From a virus: 63,108 bases of DNA. The position numbers and the translations under genes were made by a program. Location of the stretch: positions 1 through 63,108 of the IMG/VR virus record IMGVR_UViG_3300032322_001062. One strand, written 5' to 3'. A model generated the notes under the pieces. The model was not told the DNA's origin. It did no database searches and saw only the letters and a list, made by a program, of their open reading frames with translations. Shown piece after piece: positions 3,040 to 38,228 of this stretch. Positions within the stretch are counted from its first letter, which is position 1. Each line of letters begins with the position of its first letter.

Positions 3040-3230
3040 TAGTTCCTTTCTTCTGCTGGCTTGGTCTCTACGAGATCGTAGAGCAGTTGCACGGCTTGGT
3101 TGAGGCCGGCAATAACGCCGCAGGCACGGGCATACTCTTCGTAGGTCTTGGCGCCGCCACGGGAAAGAAAGTCTCTTTCCCGCTCGACACGCTTCTGAAC
3201 CTCTGCTACATACTCAGATAGTAATCTCAT
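3039..3230 (-). CDS. Small conserved head-operon protein
   Basis: A 63-residue, mostly helical charged protein coupled by single-base overlaps to the portal stop (3230) and the GroES-like start (3039). It has heptad-like spacing (VAEVQKRVERERDFL) consistent with a short coiled coil. Similar short genes commonly follow podovirus portal genes. Function unknown. Confidence 0.6.
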   Translation of the reverse strand: MRLLSEYVAEVQKRVERERDFLSRGGAKTYEEYARACGVIAGLNQAVQLLYDLVETKPAEERN

Positions 3231-5560
3231 TAGATAGCCGCGTTTGCCCGTTCTGCAAGCTGTTTGGCTTGAATATCCGCCAGTTTGGCGGAGTTGTCAA
3301 GTATTTTCGAAGAAGCCGAAATCTGGGCCTGCTTCTGCTTGTTCTCCGCGTCGAGCAACATGCTGGTTTCCTTGAGGTCAAGCTCGCGGTTCTTGAGTGC
3401 GATCTTGGCTGCCTCGCGGACATCCTGCGACTGGATGCGTGCCGCCGAAAGCTGAAGCTCCTGCTGGTTGAGGGCAACCATCTGCTGCTCAACGGACGGA
3501 CCCGCGCCACCCATGCCGGACGCCGCCGAGATCATCAGCATCTGCGTGGCGACTTGGGCCTGCACGTTCGGGTCTTCGATGGGCATGCCCATCTGCTGGG
3601 CCAGCAGAGCGGCCTGTGCCACAAACATCAGCACCTTGTGTTCGGCGATGTTGGCATTCAGAAGCTGGAGGCCGATGGCGATGGTCGGGTCGTTGGCGCC
3701 CTGCATCTGCGGCGTCTTGAGGAACGCTTCCTTCACAGCAATGTGAGCCGCGTGGTTCTGGCCAAGCTGGGCCTTGATGGGCTTGCCGGCCATGGCGGCC
3801 TGCACCTCGGTCAGCGGGTCGGCGCTGATGGCTTGGGCCTCGGGGTTGACGAGGAGCTTGTCCACGTTCTCGGTACCCATGGCCGCGTAGAAGCGCCGCA
3901 GCGCCTCGCGCATGTCATGGAGTTGCGGGAACTGGGCCGCCATGTTGAGTTCGATCTGAGCCCGGGCCACCCGCTGCGACTCGGTGAGGGCATTGGGGTC
4001 GGATGCCGGGATGACGTCCACGGCCGCCGGATCGAAGTCGTTGCGCTGGACGTAGGCGTTCTCGGAGCCGACCACGAAGTTGACGAGGTCGGGCAGGTTC
4101 TCGAAGTTGAGTTCGCCGATGAGCTTGAGGAACTCGCCCTGCGACTGGTGAAGGCGCTTGTGGATCGAAGAATAGAACCGCTGCGACGCTTCGATCAGGG
4201 CCAGCGTGGTGCCGACCGGGCCGTAGTTGGTGGCGTTGGCAGCGACCTCGTCGGTGGCGTCAGCGAACTTCTGGCCGCTATCCACCATGAACTTGAGCAG
4301 GGTGAAGAGGGTCTGGTTCGGCTCCTTGGCCGGCAGCGGGAAGAACGCCTTGCTCAGTTCTTCAGGTGACAGATTGACGTCACGCCACTCGCCGAAGCCC
4401 AGTGGGGTGTCGCTGTCGGAGAACTTGGCATCTTGGGACTTGAAGCCCGCCTGCCAGTTGGCATACTGACCTGCGTCGACGAGGGCGCGCAGGGCCACGG
4501 TCGCGGAGGCCGCAAGGTCGCCGATCAGGTGGACGTAGCCAAGGGCGTAGAAGCCGAAGGCCGGGATGAACTGGTCGACGGTGTACCAGATGCGCTTGGT
4601 CTTGGCGACGTCGTCCTCGCGCCAGTTGCGCTTGATGGAGTAGACGTTGCCGGTCTTGACGTTGAAGTGGACGATGTAGGGCGCCATGCCGCCGCTAGGC
4701 AGACTGGGGTCGTCGCCGTTCAGGTCGAGATAGCAGTGGGCCTCGCCGACCGTGTAGCCCTTGCGTTCGAGCGACATGTCGAAGCCTTGGGCGTTGGCGA
4801 TGGCTTCGGTGATCTCGTTGGTGTCGAGGACTTCCTCGGCATCGTTCTCGGAGACTTCGAGGAAGGTGCCTGCCGCCACAAGATTCTCCATCTTGCGGGT
4901 GGAAAGCTCCATGACCTCGATATATTCCTCGGCATCTCGGAGGTGGGTTGCCGACGGGTCGATGTAGAAGTTCTCGACGTAGACGACGGTCGGGTCGGGC
5001 GCCGAGTTCACGCTGTTCCAGCCGGCCTTGCGGATGCCGGTGCCCATGAAGCCGACGCGGAACAGGTTGCGTTCGAGGTCGGTATAGAAACCCGGCACCT
5101 GCTCGGTAAGCTGGTAGTTCATGTAGGTGCGGACGCGGGCAGCGGCCTGTTCGCGGGGAATGTCGACGTAGCCACGGACCTTGGTGCGGACGGGACCCTT
5201 GGCAGGCCACAGTTCTTGGATGGCCTTAGCCTGGAACTTGACCACGTTCTCGATGAGGAGGGGGTGGACGGCCGAGCAGGCCCCGTCGACCTCGGTGTTG
5301 CCTTGGCCCTCGGTGTTCAGGCCCAGCCAGTGGATGCCCTGCTTGATCTTCTCTTCCCACTGCTGGCGGGCGTTCTTGAAGTTCTGAAGGGCATCTTGAC
5401 GTTGGGAGCCGATGTCACGAAGTATTACATCGTCCATGCCGGCTGCGAGGTTAGCACCGAACGACATGTCGATCTCGACAATCTCGTCGGCCGGAATAAC
5501 TTCGAGCGTCTCTTCAGAGAACTCAAATTCCATTTCTGGATTTTCGAGATTATCAGACAT
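3230..5560 (-). CDS. Portal protein (P22-like, podovirus type)
   Basis: A 776-residue protein directly downstream of the large terminase (8-bp overlap). The N-terminal half holds the conserved region of large podovirus portals: an acidic N-terminus, a GNTEVDGACSAVHPLLIENVV segment near residue 110, a PREQAAARVRTYMNYQL segment, and a YVENFYIDPSA motif. The C-terminal third is Gln/Ala-rich and helical and resembles a barrel or crown extension. The size exceeds P22 gp1 (about 725 residues). It would form the dodecameric DNA gate at one capsid vertex and dock the terminase. Confidence 0.92.
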   Translation of the reverse strand: MSDNLENPEMEFEFSEETLEVIPADEIVEIDMSFGANLAAGMDDVILRDIGSQRQDALQNFKNARQQWEEKIKQGIHWLGLNTEGQGNTEVDGACSAVHPLLIENVVKFQAKAIQELWPAKGPVRTKVRGYVDIPREQAAARVRTYMNYQLTEQVPGFYTDLERNLFRVGFMGTGIRKAGWNSVNSAPDPTVVYVENFYIDPSATHLRDAEEYIEVMELSTRKMENLVAAGTFLEVSENDAEEVLDTNEITEAIANAQGFDMSLERKGYTVGEAHCYLDLNGDDPSLPSGGMAPYIVHFNVKTGNVYSIKRNWREDDVAKTKRIWYTVDQFIPAFGFYALGYVHLIGDLAASATVALRALVDAGQYANWQAGFKSQDAKFSDSDTPLGFGEWRDVNLSPEELSKAFFPLPAKEPNQTLFTLLKFMVDSGQKFADATDEVAANATNYGPVGTTLALIEASQRFYSSIHKRLHQSQGEFLKLIGELNFENLPDLVNFVVGSENAYVQRNDFDPAAVDVIPASDPNALTESQRVARAQIELNMAAQFPQLHDMREALRRFYAAMGTENVDKLLVNPEAQAISADPLTEVQAAMAGKPIKAQLGQNHAAHIAVKEAFLKTPQMQGANDPTIAIGLQLLNANIAEHKVLMFVAQAALLAQQMGMPIEDPNVQAQVATQMLMISAASGMGGAGPSVEQQMVALNQQELQLSAARIQSQDVREAAKIALKNRELDLKETSMLLDAENKQKQAQISASSKILDNSAKLADIQAKQLAERANAAI

Positions 5561-7121
5561 GTGTTACTTGACTCCAATAGCTCTTGAAAGGGCGTCTACT
5601 TGAGGGCCGGTCATTGTTGCCAACCTTTTCTTGCGTCAATTCATAGCGGCGGCGCAAGTAGAGCAGGGCCATCACCATAGCATCGACGGCGTCGTCATGG
5701 GCGCCCTTTGGAAATTCGAGGGCCTCCTGCAAAAGCTCGGCCGCATATTTCCGCTTGAGGGGTAGCCAGACGCGCTGACGCTCAATAATGCCTGTCACCG
5801 CATGAGCCCTAGCCACTTTATCACGGTCGGGCTGAAAAGGCAACACAGGCAGCTTATTGAGCTTGAGGTCCTGAATTAGGGACTGACCCGAAGCTTTATT
5901 TTCGACGATTATGCGATCCGGCTTGAACGTACTGTATTGTTCTTTGGCCACCGCGCGAAGCTGCGGGTAGGACCACCGGCCCCTGACTTGGTTCAGCAGA
6001 ATGGCATTGGGCTCCTGATACTCGAAACCCTTCTCGTCGGTGAAGGTTAGGTGGAAGATGCCCCACGTCTGGATGACGGAGAAGTCGGCCTTGGCCTTGG
6101 TGGAGAAGGCGGTGTCGAGGGTCTGGATGATCTCGTCACACTCGGGCGGATCGTCCTCGTCCCAATCTTGGAAGTCGTCCTTGTTGAAGACGTTGCCGTC
6201 CTCGCCGGTCGGGGTCTGCATGTACAGGGCGCCCCAGTCGGCCCGCGACAGACCCTCGCGCGTAGCGATCAGGTCGTCCATCGTGATGTATTCGGGCCAG
6301 TAGGACTCGCTCTCGGGCAGCATCAGATATTCGGCTGCGGGCTTGTCGAGGATGGCCGGAATGGATATGACTTCCCACTGGTCGACGCGCGGGTTGCGGG
6401 CGGCCTTGTCGAGCAGGAAGCCTGAAAGGTCGCGCACATGCCACCGGGTGTTGACGAGGATGATGCGGGAGTCAGGCAGTTTACGGGAGCGGAAGCCGGG
6501 GCCGTACCAGTTGTTGACGCGCTCGCGCTCGGTGTCGGACTTAGCAGTCTGCTCGGACAGGGGGTCGTCCAAGATGCCCAGATTGAAGCGGTAACCAGCG
6601 ATGGACTTGCCCGCGCCCGCTGGCATGAAGGAGCCGCCCGTGATCAGCTTCCAACTGGTGACGCCCGACATGTCGTCGCGGATGCGAACGCCGTCGAAGA
6701 TCTCTTGGTATTCGGCAGAGCGAATGAGGTCGCGGATACGGCCGGAGCATTCGACCGCCTTGTCGGTGGTGTGCGAGATCCACATGAAGCGCCAAGTTGG
6801 GTGGCGGCCCATACACCACGCGACGAACAGCATGAGGAGGACTGACTTCATGGAGCCCGGCGGCAGCATGAGCATCAGGCGGTCGACGGACCCATCGTCA
6901 ACTTCGGCGAGGGTCGCCGCTATAGACTCGATGTGACGCCCGTCTCGGTAATCATTGCCGTCCAACATAAGGTGGGCGAGTAGTTTGACGAAGACGTAGA
7001 AGTCCTCTCGCGCCTCCATGATTGCTTTTTGATGGAGGGCGTCAGCTAGTTCCGCCTTTACTCGGAGGAGGCGTTCTTCAGTTGATTCGGAGTTTGCGCT
7101 CAATTTCCGGCTCGGCTTCAC
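5553..7121 (-). CDS. terL: Terminase large subunit
   Basis: A 522-residue packaging motor. The N-terminal ATPase has a Walker A-like PPGSMKS loop, atypical because it lacks the usual GK(S/T) triad, and a Walker B GILDDP. The C-terminal RNase H-like nuclease shows its acidic residues in TLDTAFSTK, IIVENKASGQ and GAHDDAVDA. It cuts and translocates DNA into the procapsid through the portal. It overlaps the small subunit gene by 44 bp and the portal gene by 8 bp. Packaging mode cannot be read directly; the circular assembly suits headful packaging or circular permutation. Confidence 0.95.
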   Translation of the reverse strand: MKPSRKLSANSESTEERLLRVKAELADALHQKAIMEAREDFYVFVKLLAHLMLDGNDYRDGRHIESIAATLAEVDDGSVDRLMLMLPPGSMKSVLLMLFVAWCMGRHPTWRFMWISHTTDKAVECSGRIRDLIRSAEYQEIFDGVRIRDDMSGVTSWKLITGGSFMPAGAGKSIAGYRFNLGILDDPLSEQTAKSDTERERVNNWYGPGFRSRKLPDSRIILVNTRWHVRDLSGFLLDKAARNPRVDQWEVISIPAILDKPAAEYLMLPESESYWPEYITMDDLIATREGLSRADWGALYMQTPTGEDGNVFNKDDFQDWDEDDPPECDEIIQTLDTAFSTKAKADFSVIQTWGIFHLTFTDEKGFEYQEPNAILLNQVRGRWSYPQLRAVAKEQYSTFKPDRIIVENKASGQSLIQDLKLNKLPVLPFQPDRDKVARAHAVTGIIERQRVWLPLKRKYAAELLQEALEFPKGAHDDAVDAMVMALLYLRRRYELTQEKVGNNDRPSSRRPFKSYWSQVTHV

Positions 7122-7794
7122 GCAGGATGGCAGTCAGTTCGCTGATCCGGGTATCCAGTTCCTCCTTGGAGTGGATGGTCCGGTGGACGATTTCCTTCTT
7201 CTCAACGAACATGCCAAGATACTTGGCAAGGTTTTCCATGGCGCGGTTGGCGTTGGTAAAGTCGCCAGAGGCCATAGCTTGTGTGGCAATGTCGTTGAAC
7301 CACTTGACGACATCCTCGATGTTGATTTTCATGCGTGCCTTCTCCTCAATCTCGAACGCGCTGATAAGGTCGTGGAACTCCGGGATGACCAGCATACGGT
7401 TGGCCATCTCCAACAGGACGACGGGGTTGCTGCTGTTGTAGCCCGCAAGACGCATGGCGCCGCATTTGTTGGAGCGGCCGTTCAGGGCGAACTGGCGAGC
7501 GAACTCAACCTGCTTGGGCGTCAGCTTCTTGATGGCTGTGATCTTGTCCCACTTAGCCTGCCACGTTTCGCGCAGGTGATCGCGCAGGTTGCGGATCGCG
7601 TCGACGTTTTCCTTGGTGACGGCGCGGGCAGGCTTGTGGATGTTCATGCGCCGCAGTTCACGTCGGTAGCCTTTTTGGCGATCCTTCTGCGACGGCGGGT
7701 ACTTGCGCTTACGCTTGGGCGCAGGCGCCTCCCCCTGTTCAGGAGAGGTCGCCTCCACCACTTCGTCGGCAAGATCGAAAGGTTCGTCCGTCAT
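7078..7794 (-). CDS. terS: Terminase small subunit
   Basis: A 238-residue protein with an acidic N-terminus, a basic linker (KRKRKYPPSQKDRQKGYRREL) and a helix-turn-helix-type region LTPKQVEFARQFALNGRSNK (about residues 90-110), then AMRLAGYNSSNP, the hallmark of Terminase_2/P27-like small subunits. The C-terminus is a charged helix for oligomerisation. It would recognise viral DNA and load TerL. It overlaps terL by 44 bp and the upstream ATPase by 4 bp. Confidence 0.88.
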   Translation of the reverse strand: MTDEPFDLADEVVEATSPEQGEAPAPKRKRKYPPSQKDRQKGYRRELRRMNIHKPARAVTKENVDAIRNLRDHLRETWQAKWDKITAIKKLTPKQVEFARQFALNGRSNKCGAMRLAGYNSSNPVVLLEMANRMLVIPEFHDLISAFEIEEKARMKINIEDVVKWFNDIATQAMASGDFTNANRAMENLAKYLGMFVEKKEIVHRTIHSKEELDTRISELTAILREAEPEIERKLRIN

Positions 7795-9260
7795 GCTACT
7801 CCGGCTTCGTCGTCTTCGCGGACAATCGAGATCCGAGAACGGCCCTTCTGCGAAAGACTGGTCGCCCGGCCCGCGCTAAAGAAGCGAATGCCCTGCCGTT
7901 CGAGGGCAGGACGGATACGCTTCAGTTCGGCGGCGAAGCTGTGCGAAGTCTGCGGCAGCTTCTCGCGGGGACCAATGTTCATCTCAAGCTGGCCAATCAG
8001 GTCCGAATACGTCCCCGAGAACTCCTTCTGCTTATCCATCATCCGCAGGATAGCCGAAGCCATCCCATGAAATTCGAGCATCTGGCTCTCTGCCGCAGAA
8101 CGGTTGCGCTTATAGACTTCCATAAGGCGCCCTTCCTGCCAGCCAAAAGCCTTCTCAGCCGCCACCGCCCAGACCGCAAACGCAGACATACGCGGCTTTT
8201 CAGCCAAGTGTACATTACCATAATTCTGCGTAGCAATCAACGCTGCATTCATAAGCGAGCCCAGCAGGCGGGCATGGCAGGCGTTGAAGGCTTCCCAAAA
8301 CTCGTAGTCATCGCGCCGCTTGCGAGGGTCGATGCGGGGCAGATGCACATGGATCGAGCGGTCAACAAGGTCGCCGCGCTCGACGACGTCAGGAATGCCG
8401 TTCATGGCGACGGGCCGGCAAACGCGGACTGCGGACTCCTCGGCGTTGGTGTAAAGGGCGCGGCCACCCTGTGCCCCGGTGCCGGTGCTGATGACGCAGA
8501 GAGCGTCCGACATCTTGTTGGAAATGAAGGACACGTTGTCGAAGGCGAGGACGAAGGAGTTGCGCACCATAGCCTGAAGGTCGCGCTGGTCCTCGGGCGG
8601 GGTACGCATGTCGAGGGCATGCGGGTCGATAATGCGGCGCAGCAGGCGCAGGACGGTGGACTTGCCAGAGCCCTGCTCGCCGGAGATAGTGAGGACGGGG
8701 TAAGGACCTTCGGGCCGGAGGCAGCCGAGCAGCCACGCGGTCAGGAGCATGAGGCTGTCTTCGTCGGCCGCGATGAAGTCCTTGAGGAGTTCGGGGAACT
8801 CAGAGGCGGGCGCCGAGAGGTCAGGGTCGACGAGGGGCAGCATGCCCGCGCCGCGCAGCATGCGGATATGGGTCGGGCCGCCGGGCAGCTTGGTAATGCC
8901 GGAGGTCGAAATGCACCACGCATCGTTGGCATCGTTGCCGATGTCGATGTAGAGTTCGCCGACCTTGCCGCCGATGCGGATGAAGTCCTTGACCTTGCGG
9001 CCCTGAGAGCGAACCCAGTGGGCAAAGTAGGTCTGGGCCGAGTTAAGGAGGTCGCCGCCGGGCACGATGTTGACCTGATCGACGCAGAAGGAGGTGAACC
9101 AGCCACGGAAGTCGCAGTGGCCGGCAGGCGTGATGGTCAACGTGCGCCGCACACCAGCTTCGGTGTAGTCGAGGAAGAGACGGCCATCTTCGGTGGTCCA
9201 CGGCGAAAGCTGAAGCTTCGCATCGTTGATAAGCTGGACGCGGTTGATCTTATCTGACAT
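7791..9260 (-). CDS. AAA+/helicase-like ATPase (primase-helicase C-terminal type)
   Basis: A 489-residue ATPase with Walker A GEQGSGKST at about residue 205, Walker B FVLAFDNVS at about 250, and a sensor-like NGIPDVVERGDLVDRS segment. The C-terminal 130 residues form a winged-helix-like tail. The arrangement resembles the ATPase module of phage/plasmid primase-helicases (D5/P4 alpha type), but no primase motifs precede it. It is the only replicative-helicase candidate seen here, yet it is first in the packaging operon, so a packaging or DNA-processing role is possible. Start ATG at 9260 follows a GGAG site. Confidence 0.72.
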   Translation of the reverse strand: MSDKINRVQLINDAKLQLSPWTTEDGRLFLDYTEAGVRRTLTITPAGHCDFRGWFTSFCVDQVNIVPGGDLLNSAQTYFAHWVRSQGRKVKDFIRIGGKVGELYIDIGNDANDAWCISTSGITKLPGGPTHIRMLRGAGMLPLVDPDLSAPASEFPELLKDFIAADEDSLMLLTAWLLGCLRPEGPYPVLTISGEQGSGKSTVLRLLRRIIDPHALDMRTPPEDQRDLQAMVRNSFVLAFDNVSFISNKMSDALCVISTGTGAQGGRALYTNAEESAVRVCRPVAMNGIPDVVERGDLVDRSIHVHLPRIDPRKRRDDYEFWEAFNACHARLLGSLMNAALIATQNYGNVHLAEKPRMSAFAVWAVAAEKAFGWQEGRLMEVYKRNRSAAESQMLEFHGMASAILRMMDKQKEFSGTYSDLIGQLEMNIGPREKLPQTSHSFAAELKRIRPALERQGIRFFSAGRATSLSQKGRSRISIVREDDEAGVA

Positions 9261-9284
9261 GCAGGGCTCCTTGATCAGAAGCGC

Positions 9285-9313
9285 ATCCTACATGAGGTGA
9301 GCGTCGTGTGCAA
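9285..9313 (-). promoter_or_regulatory. Sigma70-like promoter for the ATPase/terminase/head operon
   Basis: On the minus strand TTGCAC (9313-9308) and TAGGAT (9290-9285) are separated by exactly 17 bp. The predicted start is near 9278, giving an 18-nt leader with a GGAG site before the ATG at 9260. GTGAG half-sites overlap the spacer and flank the -35 box. Confidence 0.55.
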
Positions 9314-9333
9314 GAGGATTCTCACCCTCTCAC
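9297..9333. promoter_or_regulatory. GTGAG/CTCAC operator-like module, copy C
   Basis: GTGAG at 9297-9301 faces CTCAC at 9321-9325 and 9329-9333, the last two 8 bp apart. An outer inverted repeat GTCGTGT (9303-9309)/ACACGAC (9335-9341) is interlaced with them. The module overlaps the packaging-operon promoter and reaches the tail-fibre stop codon. It shares the pentamer and the 8-nt period with modules A (19.5 kb) and B (22.2 kb). Confidence 0.55.
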
Positions 9334-10700
9334 TACACGACGGTCCACGTCGACCCGGTCGGCACCTCGACGGTCACGCCCGTAGCAATGGTGACGGGGC
9401 CGAAGGTACCAGCATTCTTGCCAGACGGAATCAAATAGGATACCGACACGACCGTGTCGTTCAAGTAGAAGACTTGGTTGGCACCGCCGCCCGTGGCACC
9501 ACCGCCACCACCGATTGCACCCCACGTCGCCGATGTGTAGCCTTCGAAGGTATTGGAGCCACTGTTGAAGCGGATAAGGCCGGGTGTTACGGAAGTGGGC
9601 CGGGTAGCGGTAGTGCCCGAGTGGAGAAGAAGGGCGCTGTCGCCTGTGAAGTTGACGACGCTGGTGACGACGAGGCCACCGCTGACACTGACGCCGATAG
9701 TATTGGCTGCAACAGCGATGGCAAGCTGGCCGGTCATGGTGTCGCCGGCACGCAGGACGCGGAGGGAGGTTGCTGCCGAGACTGCGTTGATGGCTACGGT
9801 GTTGACGGAGACGGCAGCAGAGACTGTGCTGACCCGCACCTCAAGCGCCGAGACCACATTGTTAATGGACGTGATGGCTGCTGCATTGGTAACACCGGTA
9901 GCGGAGGCGGCACTAACGCGGATTTCGAGTGCCGACACCACGTTGTTGATAGAGGTGATTGCAGCCGCATTGGTTACGCCGGTTGCTGATGCAGCACTAA
10001 CCCTGATTTCGAGAGCAGAAACGACGTTGTTGATGGAGGTGATGGCGGCCGAGTTGGCAACGCCTGTAGCGGAAATTGCACTGACGCGGATTTCGAGGGC
10101 AGAGACTTCGGCGTCGAGGATGGCGACCGTGGACACAAGGGCCGCGATAGCCGACACGTCACCAATGGCCGAGAGCGCCGCTTCAACTAGGGAGACGCGC
10201 GTCGACAGTGCGGAAGTCACAGCATTGATAGAGGTGATCGCGGCGGTGTTGACCGACGTCAGGGCAGAGACCGCTGCCAATTGGATGTTGAGGCTAGACA
10301 CCGAAGCCGAGACTGCCGCAACACGATCAGCGAGAACAGAAACGACGTTGTTAGTAGAGGTGAGGGCCACGCCCAACGAAACGGCAGCCGCCGACACCGC
10401 ACTGACACGCACTTCAAGCGCCGAGACAACCGCATTGACGGACGTGATAGCGACCGCGTTGACAGAAGTGAGGGCCGAGACGACTGCGATCTGGGCAGCA
10501 TTGACGGAGACGGCAGCCGACACGACATCAAGGCGCGCGGAGACGGCGGCGAGGTCGTTGCTGACGGCGCTGGTAGCAAAGATGCCGATGGCCGACACAG
10601 TCGTCCGCAGTGTTCCGCTGTTCTGCACAATCGGAACAAGCTCAACCCCAGTAAGGGGGCCGGCTGGCGGAAGTTCAGAAATCTTTTTTGGATCGGCCAT
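9333..10700 (-). CDS. Tail fibre protein with repeated coiled/triple-helix shaft
   Basis: A 455-residue fibre protein. The N-terminus (about 1-30, MADPKKISELPPA, GVELVPIVQ) resembles phage fibre attachment segments. Residues about 35-320 are a degenerate SALxxRVSAxSA / AITSINxVVSAL repeat, probably a trimeric shaft. The C-terminal domain ends with GGANQVFYLND...IPSGKNAGTFGPVTI...GVTVEVPTGSTWTVV, a cap shared by many phage fibres. It probably contacts the host surface. Almost no charged or aromatic residues occur in the shaft. It is the last gene of the tail-fibre operon. Confidence 0.82.
   Translation of the reverse strand: MADPKKISELPPAGPLTGVELVPIVQNSGTLRTTVSAIGIFATSAVSNDLAAVSARLDVVSAAVSVNAAQIAVVSALTSVNAVAITSVNAVVSALEVRVSAVSAAAVSLGVALTSTNNVVSVLADRVAAVSASVSSLNIQLAAVSALTSVNTAAITSINAVTSALSTRVSLVEAALSAIGDVSAIAALVSTVAILDAEVSALEIRVSAISATGVANSAAITSINNVVSALEIRVSAASATGVTNAAAITSINNVVSALEIRVSAASATGVTNAAAITSINNVVSALEVRVSTVSAAVSVNTVAINAVSAATSLRVLRAGDTMTGQLAIAVAANTIGVSVSGGLVVTSVVNFTGDSALLLHSGTTATRPTSVTPGLIRFNSGSNTFEGYTSATWGAIGGGGGATGGGANQVFYLNDTVVSVSYLIPSGKNAGTFGPVTIATGVTVEVPTGSTWTVV
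9837..10172 (-). repeat. 84-bp tandem coding repeat in tail-fibre shaft
   Basis: The motif GATTTCGAG (with variants) recurs at 9837, 9921, 10005 and 10089, exactly 84 bp apart. This encodes four 28-residue units of the type ATGVxNxAAITSINNVVSALEIRVSA. Such in-frame units can expand or contract by recombination and so change fibre length. Confidence 0.8.
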
Positions 10701-19385: not shown

Positions 19386-19648
19386 GTGAGAAGCCCCGCG
19401 CAGTGAGAAAGTCCAAAAGCCTTCCTCCCTCCCCGGGCCCAGCTAAGTCATTGAAATCATTGAAGAAGTGAGAAGGTGAGCGAGTGAGCGCGTTTTTCCA
19501 ACCTTTTCTATATAATACTCTTACTTCTTCTCTCATAAAAAGGGTACGCTCACCATTCTCACTTCCTCACCTTCAGGGCTTACGCCCTTGATATATAAGC
19601 CTTTTTGCGGTGAGAATCCCCGGTGAGCGTTACGCTCCCGTAACTCAC
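19386..19648. promoter_or_regulatory. GTGAG/CTCAC inverted-repeat module A
   Basis: GTGAG occurs at 19386, 19403, 19468, 19476, 19484, 19610 and 19623. CTCAC occurs at 19549, 19558, 19566 and 19644. The central copies have 8-9 bp spacing and form an imperfect inverted repeat (19465-19482 against 19548-19566) around CCAACCTTTTCTATATAAT (19498-19516). The surrounding gap 18904-19878 contains promoters but no gene. Confidence 0.6.
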
Positions 19649-21444: not shown

Positions 21445-22084
<640 letters not shown>

Positions 22085-22092
<8 letters not shown>

Positions 22093-22102
22093 GCCTGTGT
22101 GA
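22085..22102. promoter_or_regulatory. Palindrome at the HNH gene start
   Basis: TCACACA (22085-22091) and TGTGTGA (22096-22102) are perfect 7-bp arms with a 4-bp centre. The palindrome overlaps the candidate ATG at 22092. It could be an operator or an mRNA hairpin that limits translation. Confidence 0.45.
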
Positions 22103-22141
22103 TTCAAGGTGACGCCGCGTCGGGGCATTGTCACTTGGACG

Positions 22142-22332
22142 CTCACCTAGTTAAGCCGTTAAAAACATTGAGGATTTTGCCAAAGGTGAGGGAGTGAGCG
22201 GAGCGCGGCCAACCTTTTATATATGTTCTTTCTTTTCCTATAAGGAAAGCGGTCCCTCACCACGCTCACCTTCTCACTTTCGCGCGGAGAGCCTAGAGAT
22301 ACCTAGGTTTTTTAGGTGAGAGTGTAGGTGAG
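22142..22332. promoter_or_regulatory. GTGAG/CTCAC inverted-repeat module B
   Basis: GTGAG at 22186, 22194, 22316 and 22328; CTCAC at 22142, 22256, 22265 and 22273 (9- then 8-bp steps, as in module A). CGCTCACCTTCTCACTT (22263-22279) is the exact reverse complement of 19466-19482. CCAACCTTTTATATAT lies between the arms. The rest of the gap 22333-22558 holds no gene. Confidence 0.6.
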
Positions 22333-26392: not shown

Positions 26393-28483
26393 ATGTTGCT
26401 CGCAACCAAGGACGAAACCATCGAGTCCGCTGGCCTCGGCGAAGGCGGCGCCTTCACGATTGCGGCCTCGGCCAAGGCGTTCGAGGTGCTGTCCTCGAAC
26501 CTCTACCAGAACAAGATCCTGGCGGTTATCCGCGAGATCACCTGCAATGCGGCTGACGCCCACCGGCTGACGGATCGCCCGCTCTCCGACATTGAGGTGC
26601 ATCTGCCCTCCGTCGCCGAGCCTTACTTCAGCGTGCGTGACTACGGCCCCGGCCTGTCCAACGCCGATTGCATCAGCCTTTACACCACCTACTTCCGCTC
26701 GACCAAGGACCACGACAACTCGGCGATTGGCGGCTTCGGCCTTGGTTCCAAGTCGCCGTTCGCCGTGACCGACCAGTTCACTATCGTGTCGCATCACGGC
26801 GGCTGGAAGCGCACCTACATTTGCTTCAAGTCGAACGGCCAGCCGTCCATCTATCTGGCTGGGCAGGAAATCCTTGAGGACTCCGACGACACTGGCCTCA
26901 TGGTCAAGGTCGCCTCGAAGGACTGGTATGCATGGGACCGCGAGGCTAAGAACTTCTTCCAGTGGTGGCCCGAACTGCCCAAGATCACCGGCTCATGGGC
27001 CTTCAAGGTCGATCCCGTTTGGGATGGCATTGGCGATACTGGCATGGTGTCGCCGACCAAGGTGGACGGCCAGCCCGAATGGGCTTTCCTTCCCTTTGGC
27101 AATGGCAATCAGGTGTTCATGGGGCTGGTCACCTACCCGCTGAACCTTGACGCCATTCCTAATATGCCTGACGAACTGCGCTCCTTCTTCACCAACACGT
27201 CTATCTTCCTGCGCTTTGCGGTCGGCGACCTGTCGATCAGCCCGTCCCGCGAAGCCCTGTCCTACGATCCTGCCACCTGCAACGCGATCATTGACAAGCT
27301 CAAGGCTGTGATCCGCGATGCAACGGCGGCTTTCCGCACCGGCCTTGCTGCCCAGCCCGACCTCTACCATGCCCGTCGCCATGTCTACGGCAGCGAGAAC
27401 AAGGGTGTCCTCACCCTCATGGAGAAGCTGGCCACGGCCAACAAGCTGTTGTGGAAGGGCAGGCCGGTGCCCCGCAACGTCAGCAGCAACATCGACAACT
27501 TCGGTGAGGGCGTTCATGCTGACCTGATCGGCAAGAAGTCCTATCACAAGAAGGCGCAGCGTCACGTCCAGAACGCTGTGATGTATGACCACTCGGCGAC
27601 CAGTAAGGACAAGTTGTTCTGGTCTAAGACGCCGCCCCGCAACTACGTCGCTGTGCTGACTGACTATTTCGGCGGCGCCCCTGCTTGGCGTGGTCTTATC
27701 CTGCGTGGCGGTGACTACGACGACATCTGCAAGTTCTGTGAAACGATGGGCCTGCCGCAGCCCATTGACTATGCTTCACTTCCTGTGCCCGTCAAGGTTC
27801 CGACGGCACGCGGCACCGTCAGCCGCACCACTGGCTACACCTTCGATACCAATGCGCTTTCCTACAATCGTTCGACTGTTCCGCTCGACCTCAACGGCGG
27901 CGGTCTCTACCTCGACTTCACCGACGGCAAGCCTCACTACTCGCAGCAGCGTGCGCTCACTGTCCTCTTTTCTGGCGGCTTCTTCGCTGGCAATGAGCCG
28001 CGCGTCATTGGTCTGCCCAACCCGGCCAAGCGCCCCGCCAATCTCAAGCTGGCGCTTGCCCTCAACGAATGGGCCGCGTTTGACACTACGTGGTTTCAGG
28101 AAAACGTCAGCGAGGAATGGCTTGAACGTGCTGTGTGTGCCAACAACATTCGCAACTGGCTGATGCGTAACTTCTACGGCTGCGCCAAGGTTCTGCGCAC
28201 CGCCCACGCCAACAATTCTTGGCGGGGTGCCGACGACTTCTTCAATCTTGTGGCGCCTTACTTTAATGGTTCGGGCGATGTTTTTCAGCCCGGCCACCTC
28301 AACTACGATGCCTTCGCTGCTCATGCTTCCGGGGAGCAGTCCGATGCTATCCAGCGGGGCATCGACGCTGCCCAACAGGCGGAGGTCAAGTGGCATAAGT
28401 TCCTTGATGCCAACCCGATGATGCGCTACACTCCGCTGAACAACGTCCCGACCGACATCCTCAACGCTTACATCAACCGCTGA
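26393..28483 (+). CDS. rIIA: rIIA-like protein (GHKL ATPase)
   Basis: A 696-residue protein resembling T4 RIIA. GHKL/Hsp90-type ATPase motifs: REITCNAADAH (E48, N52, D55), DYGPG (D83-G87) and GGFGLGSKSPF (G114-G118). The C-terminal part is large and without recognisable domain. In T4, RIIA and RIIB together overcome Rex exclusion of lambda lysogens and affect membrane events in infection. The pairing with an rIIB-like gene 17 bp downstream strongly supports the call. Confidence 0.88.
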   Translation: MLLATKDETIESAGLGEGGAFTIAASAKAFEVLSSNLYQNKILAVIREITCNAADAHRLTDRPLSDIEVHLPSVAEPYFSVRDYGPGLSNADCISLYTTYFRSTKDHDNSAIGGFGLGSKSPFAVTDQFTIVSHHGGWKRTYICFKSNGQPSIYLAGQEILEDSDDTGLMVKVASKDWYAWDREAKNFFQWWPELPKITGSWAFKVDPVWDGIGDTGMVSPTKVDGQPEWAFLPFGNGNQVFMGLVTYPLNLDAIPNMPDELRSFFTNTSIFLRFAVGDLSISPSREALSYDPATCNAIIDKLKAVIRDATAAFRTGLAAQPDLYHARRHVYGSENKGVLTLMEKLATANKLLWKGRPVPRNVSSNIDNFGEGVHADLIGKKSYHKKAQRHVQNAVMYDHSATSKDKLFWSKTPPRNYVAVLTDYFGGAPAWRGLILRGGDYDDICKFCETMGLPQPIDYASLPVPVKVPTARGTVSRTTGYTFDTNALSYNRSTVPLDLNGGGLYLDFTDGKPHYSQQRALTVLFSGGFFAGNEPRVIGLPNPAKRPANLKLALALNEWAAFDTTWFQENVSEEWLERAVCANNIRNWLMRNFYGCAKVLRTAHANNSWRGADDFFNLVAPYFNGSGDVFQPGHLNYDAFAAHASGEQSDAIQRGIDAAQQAEVKWHKFLDANPMMRYTPLNNVPTDILNAYINR

Positions 28484-28500
28484 AACAGGAGACACATCCT

Positions 28501-29316
28501 ATGATCCCCTTCATCCTCAAGAGCGACTCCGTTGCCCTGTTCCCCGCTGGTAAGGACCCGATCCTTATCGACGTGGACCACTTCAACTTCGACATGGTTG
28601 TCGAGGCCATCCGCGCTGGCAAGTTCGAGGAGGCTGTCGAACTGGCCTCCGTTAAGAACTTCCTCGCCAAGGTGACCGGCGGCGCCGTCTCCATCACCGA
28701 GCAGGGCGTCGTCTATGGCGGCGAACCCCTGACCAACTACCTTGCCGACAAGATGATGATCTTCTTCAAGCAGGGGCTGCCCGTCGAACACTACTGCCAC
28801 TTCCTCTCGAACCTCATGGCCAACCCGTCCATGACGGCGCGCAAGGAACTCTACCTGTTCCTCGAGGCTGCCAACCTGCCGGTCACTGAGGACGGCTGCT
28901 TCCTCGCCTACAAGGCGGTGCGCTCCGACTACAAGGACATCCACTCGGGCAAGTTCGACAACTCGCCGGGCACCGTTCATCTGATGGCGCGCCATGACGT
29001 TGACGACAACCGCAACGTGACGTGCAGCTACGGCTTCCATGCTGCCGCCTACGAATACGCCAAGAACTTCATGCAGTCCGACGGCAAGATGGTCGCGGTT
29101 AAGATCAACCCGGCCCACGTGGTGTCGGTGCCCGCTGACTACGGCAACCAGAAGCTGCGCTGCTGCTCCTACACCGTCATGTTCGAGGTGCCGGGCGCCG
29201 CTGACATCTTCAAGAACAAGTCCTATATGGAGTCGGCCGGTGAGCCGCTGCCCGATGCCGAGGAGCGTTCCTACTTCTGGGGCGACGTCTTCGACGAGGA
29301 CGACGGCGACATCTAA
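28501..29316 (+). CDS. rIIB: rIIB-like protein
   Basis: A 271-residue protein resembling T4 RIIB: an N-terminal region (residues 1-85), then LEAANLPVTEDGCFLAYKAVRSDYKDIHSG (about 120-150) and a CSYGFHAAAYEYAKNFM segment, typical of the RIIB C-terminal domain. It follows rIIA in the same operon with a CAGGAGAC site. A terminator hairpin follows directly. Confidence 0.85.
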   Translation: MIPFILKSDSVALFPAGKDPILIDVDHFNFDMVVEAIRAGKFEEAVELASVKNFLAKVTGGAVSITEQGVVYGGEPLTNYLADKMMIFFKQGLPVEHYCHFLSNLMANPSMTARKELYLFLEAANLPVTEDGCFLAYKAVRSDYKDIHSGKFDNSPGTVHLMARHDVDDNRNVTCSYGFHAAAYEYAKNFMQSDGKMVAVKINPAHVVSVPADYGNQKLRCCSYTVMFEVPGAADIFKNKSYMESAGEPLPDAEERSYFWGDVFDEDDGDI

Positions 29317-34982: not shown

Positions 34983-35268
34983 CAACACTGCGACCGTCTT
35001 GTCAGTTGACGAGGACTTCATCAAGATCTCACTTGATGACGAGACTGCCGACATGATCTTGTGTCAGTTGCTTCGGCATCAGGCGCAGGTTATCTTCAAG
35101 TGCATGCAACAGTCGGTGACTGAGATCTACGAGGACTATAGCCAGACGTATCTGTGGGAGGATTTGCAGCGCGCTATGAAGCATATCGAGGCGATCAACG
35201 TGCTGCTCGATTATTATGGCCAGCCGATGATTGACCTTCCCGCTGAAATGGAGAGGCGCTCAAAGTGA
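34975..35268 (+). CDS. Small hypothetical protein
   Basis: A 97-residue acidic helical protein from ATG 34975, overlapping DUF3310 by 8 bp and the exonuclease gene by 4 bp. It is directly upstream of the split polymerase and may be part of the replication operon. No family recognised. Confidence 0.55.
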   Translation: MANNTATVLSVDEDFIKISLDDETADMILCQLLRHQAQVIFKCMQQSVTEIYEDYSQTYLWEDLQRAMKHIEAINVLLDYYGQPMIDLPAEMERRSK

Positions 35269-36209
35269 AGCTGGCGCTGGTTGTTGACTGGCCTGCGATT
35301 GACGCAGCGCCGGGCCAGCCCTTCTCCGAGTGGGAGTGGCAGGTCATCAAGGAGTTGATGGAGGCGGCCGGCTTCAAGCCGACCGTCATCCACACTGCCT
35401 TCCGCGCTTACGTCGCCAAGTGGCACACCCTCTTTGCGGGTAGCAAGCCGGGCGGTGAGTTGGCGTCTACGGCTAAGGAAGATCAGGCCAAGCTGGTCGA
35501 GAAGCTGAAGGGCTTCGACATCGCGTTGACGATGGGGCAGCACGCCATGTTCTGCCTGACTGGCGAGACCAAGATCGACACCTTCCGGGGCACCCACATC
35601 GACAGTCCCTTCGTCGAGGGGTTGCAGGTGGTGCCGACCTACGCACCCAACATCTTCGCCCGCATGGCGTGGAACGAGCGGCCCGTTGTGGTGTCGGCGA
35701 TGCGTAAGGCGCGCAAGCGTTTCGAGGACAGGCCGCGCACGGTCTACATCCCCGAGACGGTCGCCGACCTCTACGAGTTCTCGACCAAGCACATTGGTAA
35801 CGAGATCGTGTTCGACGTCGAAACCAACAAGTCGTGCCGCATCACTGAGTTCTCGGCGGCAACCTCGTCAGGCTGCTGCCTCTACGTCCACCTTGAAGAT
35901 CGCAACTACAGGTCGGTGTGGTCGGAGGCTGACGAGTTGGACATCTGGTTGTGGCTGCGGTTCTTGGCCAGCCGCCACGATCTGGCGTGGGGTTTTCATA
36001 ACGCCACCTATGACTTGACTTACCTCGATGCCTACGGTATACGACCGCGTGGCCCGATCTTCGACACGATGCTTCGTCACCACGCATGGCAGCCGGAATG
36101 GGAAAAGAGCTTGGGCTTCCTCGCTTCCCTCCACATTCCGACCCGTGCATGGAAGCATCTGCGGACCAAGGCCAAGAAGGACTTCAACAAGGGCGGCTCA
36201 GTCGACTGA
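35265..36209 (+). CDS. DNA polymerase A, part 1: UDG-like domain plus incomplete 3'-5' exonuclease
   Basis: A 314-residue protein from GTG 35265. Residues about 1-150 resemble the uracil-DNA-glycosylase-like domain that precedes some phage PolA exonucleases (ALTMGQHAM, RGTHIDSP, VVPTYAPNIFARMAW). Residues 180-290 are the DnaQ-like proofreading domain: Exo I FDVET (D184, E186), Exo II HNATYD (N246, D250) and a downstream D267. The domain stops at KKDFNKGGSVD, before Exo III. The missing Exo III is at the start of 36780-38228. Two small genes separate the parts. Confidence 0.85.
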   Translation: MKLALVVDWPAIDAAPGQPFSEWEWQVIKELMEAAGFKPTVIHTAFRAYVAKWHTLFAGSKPGGELASTAKEDQAKLVEKLKGFDIALTMGQHAMFCLTGETKIDTFRGTHIDSPFVEGLQVVPTYAPNIFARMAWNERPVVVSAMRKARKRFEDRPRTVYIPETVADLYEFSTKHIGNEIVFDVETNKSCRITEFSAATSSGCCLYVHLEDRNYRSVWSEADELDIWLWLRFLASRHDLAWGFHNATYDLTYLDAYGIRPRGPIFDTMLRHHAWQPEWEKSLGFLASLHIPTRAWKHLRTKAKKDFNKGGSVD

Positions 36210-36231
36210 CGCCCCAACGCAGGAGAGAGTA

Positions 36232-36489
36232 ATGGCTGAAGTTGCGGTTTCATTCCGCGTCGATTTCGAGGCTGACGGCCTTACGGTCAAGGCCCGCCAC
36301 AAGATGCATGAGGTTCTGATGGAGTGGCTGCGCGAAACTACGCGCAACGGCAACACTGGTAAGCTGCACAAGGACCTTGAAGCAGCAGCCGGCATGCCTG
36401 TGCCGGAGTTCCGTCTGTTCGTCATCGACGATCTGACTACCTCGCGTGACGATTATCGCTACGAGCGGGTGTTGGAAGCGGCGCGCTAA
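36232..36489 (+). CDS. Small hypothetical protein between the polymerase halves
   Basis: A 85-residue protein from ATG 36232 (AGGAGAG site). A VDFEADGLTVKARHKMHEVLMEWLRE N-terminus and a beta-strand C-terminal half. It may be a partner bridging the two polymerase parts; no homology is recognised. It is independently translated, so this is not a spliced insertion. Confidence 0.6.
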   Translation: MAEVAVSFRVDFEADGLTVKARHKMHEVLMEWLRETTRNGNTGKLHKDLEAAAGMPVPEFRLFVIDDLTTSRDDYRYERVLEAAR

Positions 36490-36490
36490 C

Positions 36491-36823
36491 ATGAATGACG
36501 ACGATGCTGCGATCCGCCGGCTTTGGGCCAGCGTAATTATTCAGGCCCTGATCGACGCCACGTCTGAGCCGAAGACCCCGCAGGGGGTTGTGCATAAGAA
36601 GCAGGCACAGGCGTGGATCACGGCGGAGTTTGGCACGACTGCCCAGAACTTTGAGGGCATCTGCCTTGCTGCCAGCATCGAGCCTGTCAGGGTGCGGACC
36701 TTCATCAAGAACTATGATGGGCCGCCCTTGACGCTTCACATCATGTCCCGTATGCGGGATTCGTTTCTCAAGGGGGACAGTGGTGAAGACTCTTCAGTTG
36801 CAGAACCTGACGATCACGCCTGA
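36491..36823 (+). CDS. Small hypothetical protein overlapping polymerase part 2
   Basis: A 110-residue protein from ATG 36491. Helical with KKQAQAWITAEFG and an acidic C-terminus. Its last 44 bp overlap the beginning of the polymerase gene in another frame. No homing-endonuclease motif was seen. Function unknown. Confidence 0.6.
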   Translation: MNDDDAAIRRLWASVIIQALIDATSEPKTPQGVVHKKQAQAWITAEFGTTAQNFEGICLAASIEPVRVRTFIKNYDGPPLTLHIMSRMRDSFLKGDSGEDSSVAEPDDHA

Positions 36824-38228
36824 AAACCAGGAGATCGTATACAACGCGCTCGACACCATGCAGACGATGGCCCTCAAGGAAATCTTTGACGGGGGCCTGC
36901 TGCCTGCATGGGCGTCGACGACCTACCGCTACAGCGAACTGATGCTGGGTCCCATCATGACCATGATGCGGCGCGGTGTGCAGATCGACACCGAGCGGCG
37001 GGACATGCTGGTGCGTGGCCTGCGTGAACGGGCCGACAAGGTGCAGGCGCGGTTCGACTTCCTGTGCGAGTCGCTGTTCAACACGACCGTCAACCACAAC
37101 TCGACGCCCCAGCTTCAGACTTTGTTCTATGAGTTTCTGGCGATCCCCGAGCAGACCAAGTCCAAGAAGGGTGAGGTCAAGGTCGGGGCCGACCGGGAAA
37201 TCCTCGAACGCATTGCCCGCGACTATCCGCGTGGCGCCCTCTTTGCCAACCACATTCTGCGTATCCGGGACCTCGAAAAGCAGATCGAGTTCCTGTCGAA
37301 GAAGCTGTCGCCCAGCAACCGCTTCCACGCTGCGTTCAATGTGGCTGGCACCGAGACGTTCCGCCTGTCGTCCAGCGAACATCCGTTCCGCATTGGCTCG
37401 AACTTGCAGAACATCCCGAAGGAGGCGCGCACTTGCTTCGTCGCCGACCCCGGCTACATGCTGTTCTACTCGGACCAGCAGGGTGCCGAGGCCCGCATTG
37501 TCGCCTACCTGTCAGGTGACGAGAACTACATCGCGGCTGTCGAGGGCGGCGACTCGCACACTATGGTGGCCAGCATGGTGTTCGGCTTCCCGACTGACCG
37601 CGAACTCGCAGAGCGCGAGTACTACCGGGGCTACTCCTACCGGGACATCACGAAGCGCGGCGCCCACGGCTCCAACTACTATGGCAAGCCGTTCACTTTG
37701 GCGCAGCAGATGAAGGTCGAGACGGCCGTGGCCGAAGCCTTCCAGATGCAGTACTTCCGGCGCTTCCCCGGTATCTCTAACTGGCATGCGTGGGTGGCCA
37801 ACCAGTTGCAGAAGAAGGGCTACCTGATTAGTCCGTTCGGTATCCGCCGCAACTTCTGGAACCGGCGCTGGGATGATGCCACCCTGCGTGAAGCGATTGC
37901 CTTCGTACCCCAGCACTGCGTTGGCGTGCTGATGAACGTGGGCATCTATCAGATTTGGGAGCGGTTCGAGGGCAAGCCCGGAGCCGATGTCCAGATCCTG
38001 CTGAACCTCCATGACGCGGTTCTCGGTCAGGTCCGTATCGACAAGGCCGCCGAGTTGTTGCCGCAGGTCTTGGAGTGCTTGCACTTTCCTTTCCCCGTGA
38101 CTGACATTAATGGGATTACCCGTGAAATAGTTATTCCCTTTGATGTCGAGGTCGGTTACAATTGGGGCAAGGCCAGTGACAAGAACCCGTCTGGCCTCAA
38201 GAAGTGGAGGCCCGATGGCAAGGCATGA
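36780..38228 (+). CDS. polA: DNA polymerase A, part 2: Exo III motif plus polymerase domain
   Basis: About 482 residues from GTG 36780 (or GTG 36783), after GGGGGA. The N-terminus carries the Exo III pattern Y21-NAL-D25. Then the polymerase domain: TETFRLSSSEHP, motif A YSDQQGAEAR (D232), motif B KRGAHGSNYYGKPF (about 292-304), and motif C NLHDAVLG (H411-D412). It replicates phage DNA. The exonuclease active site must be shared with the upstream polypeptide. T7-like length for the polymerase module. Confidence 0.92.
   Translation: MVKTLQLQNLTITPENQEIVYNALDTMQTMALKEIFDGGLLPAWASTTYRYSELMLGPIMTMMRRGVQIDTERRDMLVRGLRERADKVQARFDFLCESLFNTTVNHNSTPQLQTLFYEFLAIPEQTKSKKGEVKVGADREILERIARDYPRGALFANHILRIRDLEKQIEFLSKKLSPSNRFHAAFNVAGTETFRLSSSEHPFRIGSNLQNIPKEARTCFVADPGYMLFYSDQQGAEARIVAYLSGDENYIAAVEGGDSHTMVASMVFGFPTDRELAEREYYRGYSYRDITKRGAHGSNYYGKPFTLAQQMKVETAVAEAFQMQYFRRFPGISNWHAWVANQLQKKGYLISPFGIRRNFWNRRWDDATLREAIAFVPQHCVGVLMNVGIYQIWERFEGKPGADVQILLNLHDAVLGQVRIDKAAELLPQVLECLHFPFPVTDINGITREIVIPFDVEVGYNWGKASDKNPSGLKKWRPDGKA

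Follow-up and report, generated by a model that had tools for sequence, protein, structure and literature searches.

GTGAG iterons shared by the promoter of a helicase–packaging operon and two candidate replication origins of an uncultured tailed phage

Organization of the helicase–packaging operon

The window, that is, the whole 63,108-nucleotide stretch of viral DNA that was analysed, carries a leftward operon headed by a promoter in which three GTGAG pentamers are embedded. The following features make up the operon and its upstream region.

3230–5560 (−): portal protein (phrog_1216, 2.8e-24)
5553–7121 (−): terminase large subunit, TerL (phrog_38, 7.5e-99)
7078–7794 (−): terminase small subunit, TerS, overlapping the helicase stop (phrog_51, 1.6e-11)
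7791–9260 (−): 489-aa SF3/D5-type helicase, candidate iteron-binding initiator and first gene of the operon (motifs, primase fusions, AF2 fold, winged helix)
9267–9272 (−): Shine-Dalgarno-like AAGGAG (direct reading)
9285–9290 (−): −10 hexamer TAGGAT, 24 nt ahead of the ATG at 9260 (sequence; relatives)
9297–9301 (−): inverted iteron, CTCAC on the transcribed strand, within the −35/−10 spacer (sequence; 59/59 distinct upstream regions)
9308–9313 (−): −35 hexamer TTGCAC (sequence; 17-bp spacing in 59/59)
9321–9333 (−): direct pair of pentamer iterons, GTGAG-AGG-GTGAG, adjoining the −35 hexamer upstream (sequence; 59/59 distinct upstream regions)
9302–9342 (no strand): inverted repeat, non-conserved

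The original prediction placed GTGAG at 9297–9301 (+) and CTCAC at 9321–9325 and 9329–9333, 8 bp apart from start to start, within and next to a TTGCAC-17-TAGGAT promoter. Direct reading of the sequence bears out both sites and promoter, with TTGCAC (9313–9308), a 17-bp spacer and TAGGAT (9290–9285) on the minus strand. The promoter is directed leftwards, into the ATG at 9260, and lies in a 72-bp intergenic region flanked by two leftward genes. The order on the minus strand is GTGAG-AGG-GTGAG-AATCCTC-TTGCAC-ACGACG-CTCAC-CTCATG-TAGGAT, followed by 24 nt containing AAGGAG up to the ATG. What had been called a packaging operon does contain the terminase subunits and the portal protein in overlapping reading frames, but its first gene encodes a replication helicase of SF3/D5 type rather than a packaging protein.

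GTGAG by itself is not enriched in the window, and an apparent depletion elsewhere in the genome vanished once expected counts came from a third-order Markov model (74.6 copies expected, 68 found). Pairs of the form GTGAG-N3..5-GTGAG number 8 in the window, versus a mean of 0.51 and a maximum of 3 in 200 dinucleotide shuffles, and the triple GTGAG-N3..5-GTGAG-N10..25-CTCAC occurs once, at the helicase promoter, versus 0.005 in shuffles. Of the GTGAG/CTCAC sites, 3 lie at this promoter and 19 in two hubs at 19–22 kb, described below.

Conservation of the promoter module in relatives

Searches of IMG/VR with the terminase and the helicase yielded loci at 82–100% protein identity, providing 81 regions upstream of the helicase gene (including that of the window), of which 59 are distinct. 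The GTGAG pair is kept in all 59, sometimes with GTGAA as the second copy, across a gap of 3, 4 or 5 bp and with a period that varies from 8 to 10 bp. CTCAC (54/59) or TTCAC (5/59) always lies wholly within the promoter spacer, and a sigma-70 promoter (TTGCAN or TTGACA-like, 17 bp, TAnnnT) is present in 59/59. Absence of the sites from relatives had been named beforehand as a possible refutation; pair, inverted pentamer and promoter were instead found together throughout. The DNA farther upstream consists of the ends of different genes and is strongly divergent among relatives, and because the layout is kept while this DNA differs so strongly, we consider the operator–promoter module to be under selection. 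In the window, the gene directly upstream of the invariant operator (9333–10700, −) encodes a 455-aa, coiled-coil-repeat, fibre-like protein that is very variable among relatives.

In whole records of well-covered relatives, the pair pattern is essentially confined to the helicase promoter and the two hubs, and reversed-pattern controls gave 0–1 matches. Pattern matches in L087, L088, L091, L096 and others proved to be unrelated repeats and were left out of the evidence. No near-identical DNA was found in the phage collection.

This conservation bears directly on two alternative accounts. Clustering of a common pentamer by chance, with which the unenriched total of GTGAG would agree, is contradicted by the excess of pairs over shuffles (8 versus 0.51 expected) and was already refuted by their retention in 59/59 upstream regions, so that its probability is negligible. 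The second account concerns the GTCGTGT/ACACGAC repeat described earlier as interlaced with the GTGAG sites. The repeat is indeed present at that place (CGTCGTGT, 9302–9309; ACACGACG, 9335–9342), but its occurrence is restricted to the window and to the L066 group, which is nearly identical to it; the repeat is probably incidental. It could alternatively serve as an RNA hairpin, a terminator or attenuator ending the upstream fibre gene, and folding of the window RNA is unusually strong (−40.8 kcal/mol, z −4.98); a U-tract is absent, however, and relatives fold differently or not at all. As the structure is not conserved whereas the GTGAG sites are, a hairpin function was rejected and seems to us highly improbable.

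Two mirrored iteron hubs at 19–22 kb

GTGAG sites also form two hubs, each with pentamers in opposite orientations on either side of an AT-rich core.

19386–19648 (no strand): hub 1 with outer GTGAG sites, 11 GTGAG/CTCAC in total
19468–19570 (no strand): hub 1 core, candidate origin, with three GTGAG (+), a 60-bp AT-rich core and three CTCAC
22142–22332 (no strand): hub 2 with outer GTGAG sites, 8 in total
22186–22277 (no strand): hub 2 core, second candidate origin, with two GTGAG, a 57-bp AT-rich core and three CTCAC

The cores rank among the most AT-rich DNA of the window: of its 16 most AT-rich 40-mers, 12 lie in the hub 1 core and 3 in the hub 2 core (15/16 together). Reading by eye revealed no sigma-70-like hexamer pair within a hub core. 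Hub 1 separates leftward ThyX-like/RNR genes from rightward ones; plus-strand ORFs at 16–18.9 kb were rejected as genes, the coding strand there being minus (RNR, ThyX-like). The sign of the GC skew changes near 19 kb, yet it also tracks gene direction and was not taken as an origin mark.

Related hub cores take the form CCAACCTTTTTCTATATATTCTT, and the two hubs of relatives are 1.5–4.5 kb apart and 9–11 kb from the helicase gene. The IHF consensus WATCARNNNNTTR is matched at fixed positions, on one or both sides, in 19/23 hubs of relatives, where the background rate is 0.036 per kb; in the window itself, both hubs have degenerate matches only. A helicase search of 20 hub-bearing contigs gave no match, a result that carries no weight: in the six contigs checked (L101, L109, L114, L115, L120 and L124) the hub coordinates place the expected helicase beyond or at the contig end, and the others are short or unrelated pattern matches.

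The region had been predicted to be a hub of transcriptional control sharing its motif with the 9.3-kb promoter. The shared motif stands, but the mirrored iterons, the AT-rich core and the missing hexamer pair make the hubs look like two iteron replication origins rather than a transcription hub.

Several further features accompany the hubs. Outer GTGAG pairs with 7–8-bp gaps lie to their right (19610–19648 and 22316–22332 in the window; also L111, L117, L118, L101 and L113), and in several relatives are followed by TTGACA, which suggests a further regulated promoter. Between the hubs is a (GA)19.5 dinucleotide repeat (21511–21549), unusual in phage DNA, and long (GA)n or (CA)n tracts occur near a hub in the relatives L110, L089 and L108. 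The frame of an HNH/endonuclease VII-like gene between the candidate origins (21445–22146, −), possibly a homing endonuclease, crosses the GA repeat.

The helicase and iteron arrays at homologous loci

The 489-aa helicase has the Walker A motif GEQGSGKS and the invariant columns of the sequence alignment, and matches none of the PHROG families. In distant homologues, Prim-Pol (best 6e-38) or Toprim/zinc-ribbon primase parts precede the helicase within one fused protein, and one plasmid homologue sits after a bifunctional primase/polymerase gene. The window's protein begins past the primase part; primase is neither fused nor adjacent to it (the upstream gene is fibre-like and the downstream gene is TerS), and none was recognised among the window genes scanned. 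Its AF2 model (47 sequences, pLDDT 86.8) is closest to the SaPI5 primase-helicase, SaPI5 Rep (Z 19.1, rmsd 5.2, 372 residues), followed by poxvirus D5 (Z about 17) and NrS-1 (12.6), with PriRep1 and Cch also listed. Modelled alone, C-terminal residues 396–486 adopt a winged helix whose top matches are RepE–iteron, pi–iteron and RepE–operator complexes, with weak Z scores of 6.3–7.1, too low to imply more than a shared arrangement. As an SF3/D5 helicase, the protein was not assigned to the Rep_3/pi family of initiators. Elsewhere in this 63-kb phage, DNA polymerase A is seemingly split (35265–38228, +) into an exonuclease ORF (35265–36209) and a polymerase ORF (36780–38228) with another ORF between them, and RIIA- and RIIB-like genes lie at 26393–29316 (+).

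If GTGAG is the site of the helicase, its homologues should have comparable arrays. Loci of 86 distant homologues (about 23–40% identity) were therefore searched for mirrored pentamers with 3–5-bp gaps and at least five copies, and such arrays were found at 24/86, versus 0/172 shuffled loci; the other 62/86 had no array under this strict definition. Among 80 phage terminase loci used as a control, the only array was at L060, itself a hub of the window's phage family. Nearly all arrays are at the 3′ end of the helicase gene, either just past its stop (L200, L202–L205, L214, L226, L257) or inside its tail-coding part (L216, L220, L253, L270, L273). Their words include GTCAG, GTCCG, GTCAC, GTCCC and CGTCA, and L133 has GTGAC in a looser array. 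Because these arrays match those of the window, pentamer iterons of the same geometry appear to travel with the helicase family, with GTGAG as these phages' version; at the sequence level this association is a correlation. Mirrored iterons past or within the 3′ end of primase-helicase genes are seen at L202:2306–2376, L203:4186–4258, L226:4186–4247, L216:4419–4515 and others, and such arrays in bacterial genomes are candidate origins of uncharacterised mobile elements.

A candidate autoregulatory operator

GTGAG sites are present and conserved at both promoter and hubs, which makes it very probable that a single factor recognises the two, as had been proposed. We think it probable that GTGAG is the iteron of the helicase, that the hubs are origins and that the helicase regulates its own operon from an operator at 9.3 kb. 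The pentamer would be recognised by the 489-aa origin-binding helicase, probably through its predicted C-terminal winged helix. At the putative origins (19.4–19.65 and 22.1–22.3 kb), helicase bound to the mirrored iterons would open the AT-rich DNA-unwinding core and load itself, as their anatomy suggests. At the putative operator (9297–9333), two iterons abut the −35 hexamer and the third sits in the −35/−10 spacer; a helicase occupying them would keep host RNA polymerase off the promoter and thereby repress transcription of helicase, TerS, TerL and portal. The iteron between the promoter elements therefore predicts repression, that is, initiator autoregulation, and not activation. Overlap of GTGAG sites with the helicase promoter in 59/59 distinct upstream regions is the arrangement of an autoregulated replicon, with the helicase as the presumed binder. 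Direct binding, origin activity and repression are what we infer from the sequence; the 9.3-kb site, which is real and conserved, is better explained as an autoregulatory operator of the initiator than as a late-gene switch.

The sites could instead belong to a separate phage transcription factor, which would act on divergent early promoters through operators in the hubs and on the helicase–packaging operon through the 9.3-kb operator, together forming an early/late switch. The position of hub 1 between divergent genes, the outer GTGAG pairs preceding TTGACA in several relatives and the overlap of operator and promoter are all consistent with such a factor. We nevertheless consider it unlikely: no member of an HTH, RHH or other regulator family turned up among the ORFs scanned, the AT-rich hub cores have no promoter-like hexamer pair, and a private repressor would not explain why mirrored pentamer arrays occur alongside this helicase family across unrelated hosts. 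Far less probable is a partition or genome-organising site of an autoregulating centromere-binding protein of ParB or ribbon-helix-helix type. Centromere-binding proteins are known to use short direct repeats with a period of about 8 bp, but neither the AT-rich core nor the link to the helicase would be expected, and no ParA, ParB or RHH family match was found in the ORFs scanned.

An autoregulatory operator could also produce an early/late effect indirectly, through titration of the initiator. In this speculative extension, the helicase would repress its operon until replication had multiplied the origins, whose copies would titrate it off the operator (3 operator iterons versus 11 + 8 origin iterons per genome), and terminase and portal expression would rise in proportion to genome copies, forming a replication-coupled packaging switch. 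We put this forward tentatively, as a rather unlikely possibility; if true, packaging genes would be timed by origin count and not by a dedicated late regulator.

Comparison with known replicons

SaPI Rep binds its iterons through a C-terminal domain (PMC7581432), and the origins of Gram-negative PICIs consist of an AT-rich region between two iteron sets (PMC6092414). The window's candidate initiator has the same SF3/D5-type helicase fold in its model (SaPI5 Rep, Z 19.1) and a predicted C-terminal winged helix where Rep has its iteron-recognising domain (PMC7581432), and the hubs likewise have two iteron sets around an AT-rich core (PMC6092414). In SaPIs the origin adjoins rep, and the arrays of the distant homologues nearly all lie at the helicase gene, whereas the hubs are 9–11 kb from it. 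The window is, moreover, a whole tailed-phage genome with two candidate origins, 1.5–4.5 kb apart in these phages, and a different iteron, its helicase has no fused primase, and iterons also lie inside the promoter of the initiator gene. Because terminase, portal, virion proteins and DNA polymerase are all encoded in the window itself, the lifestyle of a helper-parasitising island does not apply, and membership of the SaPI/PICI replicon class was rejected for want of origin adjacency, a linked primase and a satellite lifestyle.

SCCmec Cch2 also combines a D5-family helicase with pentanucleotide iterons at a putative origin, and requires these short direct repeats of 5 nt (PMC7581432); it has three direct iterons downstream of its gene, whereas the window has mirrored arrays and a promoter operator. 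The autorepression of R6K pi, as represented in work cited in PMC4980987, resembles the window's self-operator. For both pi and F RepE, initiator sites lie at the origin and overlap the initiator's promoter, and RepE and pi on iteron or operator DNA are the structures most like the predicted winged helix, with weak Z scores. Unlike the window's candidate initiator, pi and RepE are not helicases, and the operon under the operator here includes terminase and portal genes. In satellite phage P4, one helicase initiator, the alpha protein, has two separated iteron cis sites, ori1 and crr; alpha carries a fused primase, and its iterons differ from those of the window in sequence and arrangement.

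For an uncultured phage group to which the phage database searched offered no close relative, the analysis names a probable initiator, a 5-bp recognition word, two candidate origins and a self-operator. The results also suggest that a helicase family spread across many bacterial phyla keeps legible pentamer iterons next to the gene that encodes it, so that origins could be predicted from sequence. With the terminase operon tied to an origin-binding helicase, replication would have a simple and testable path to packaging.
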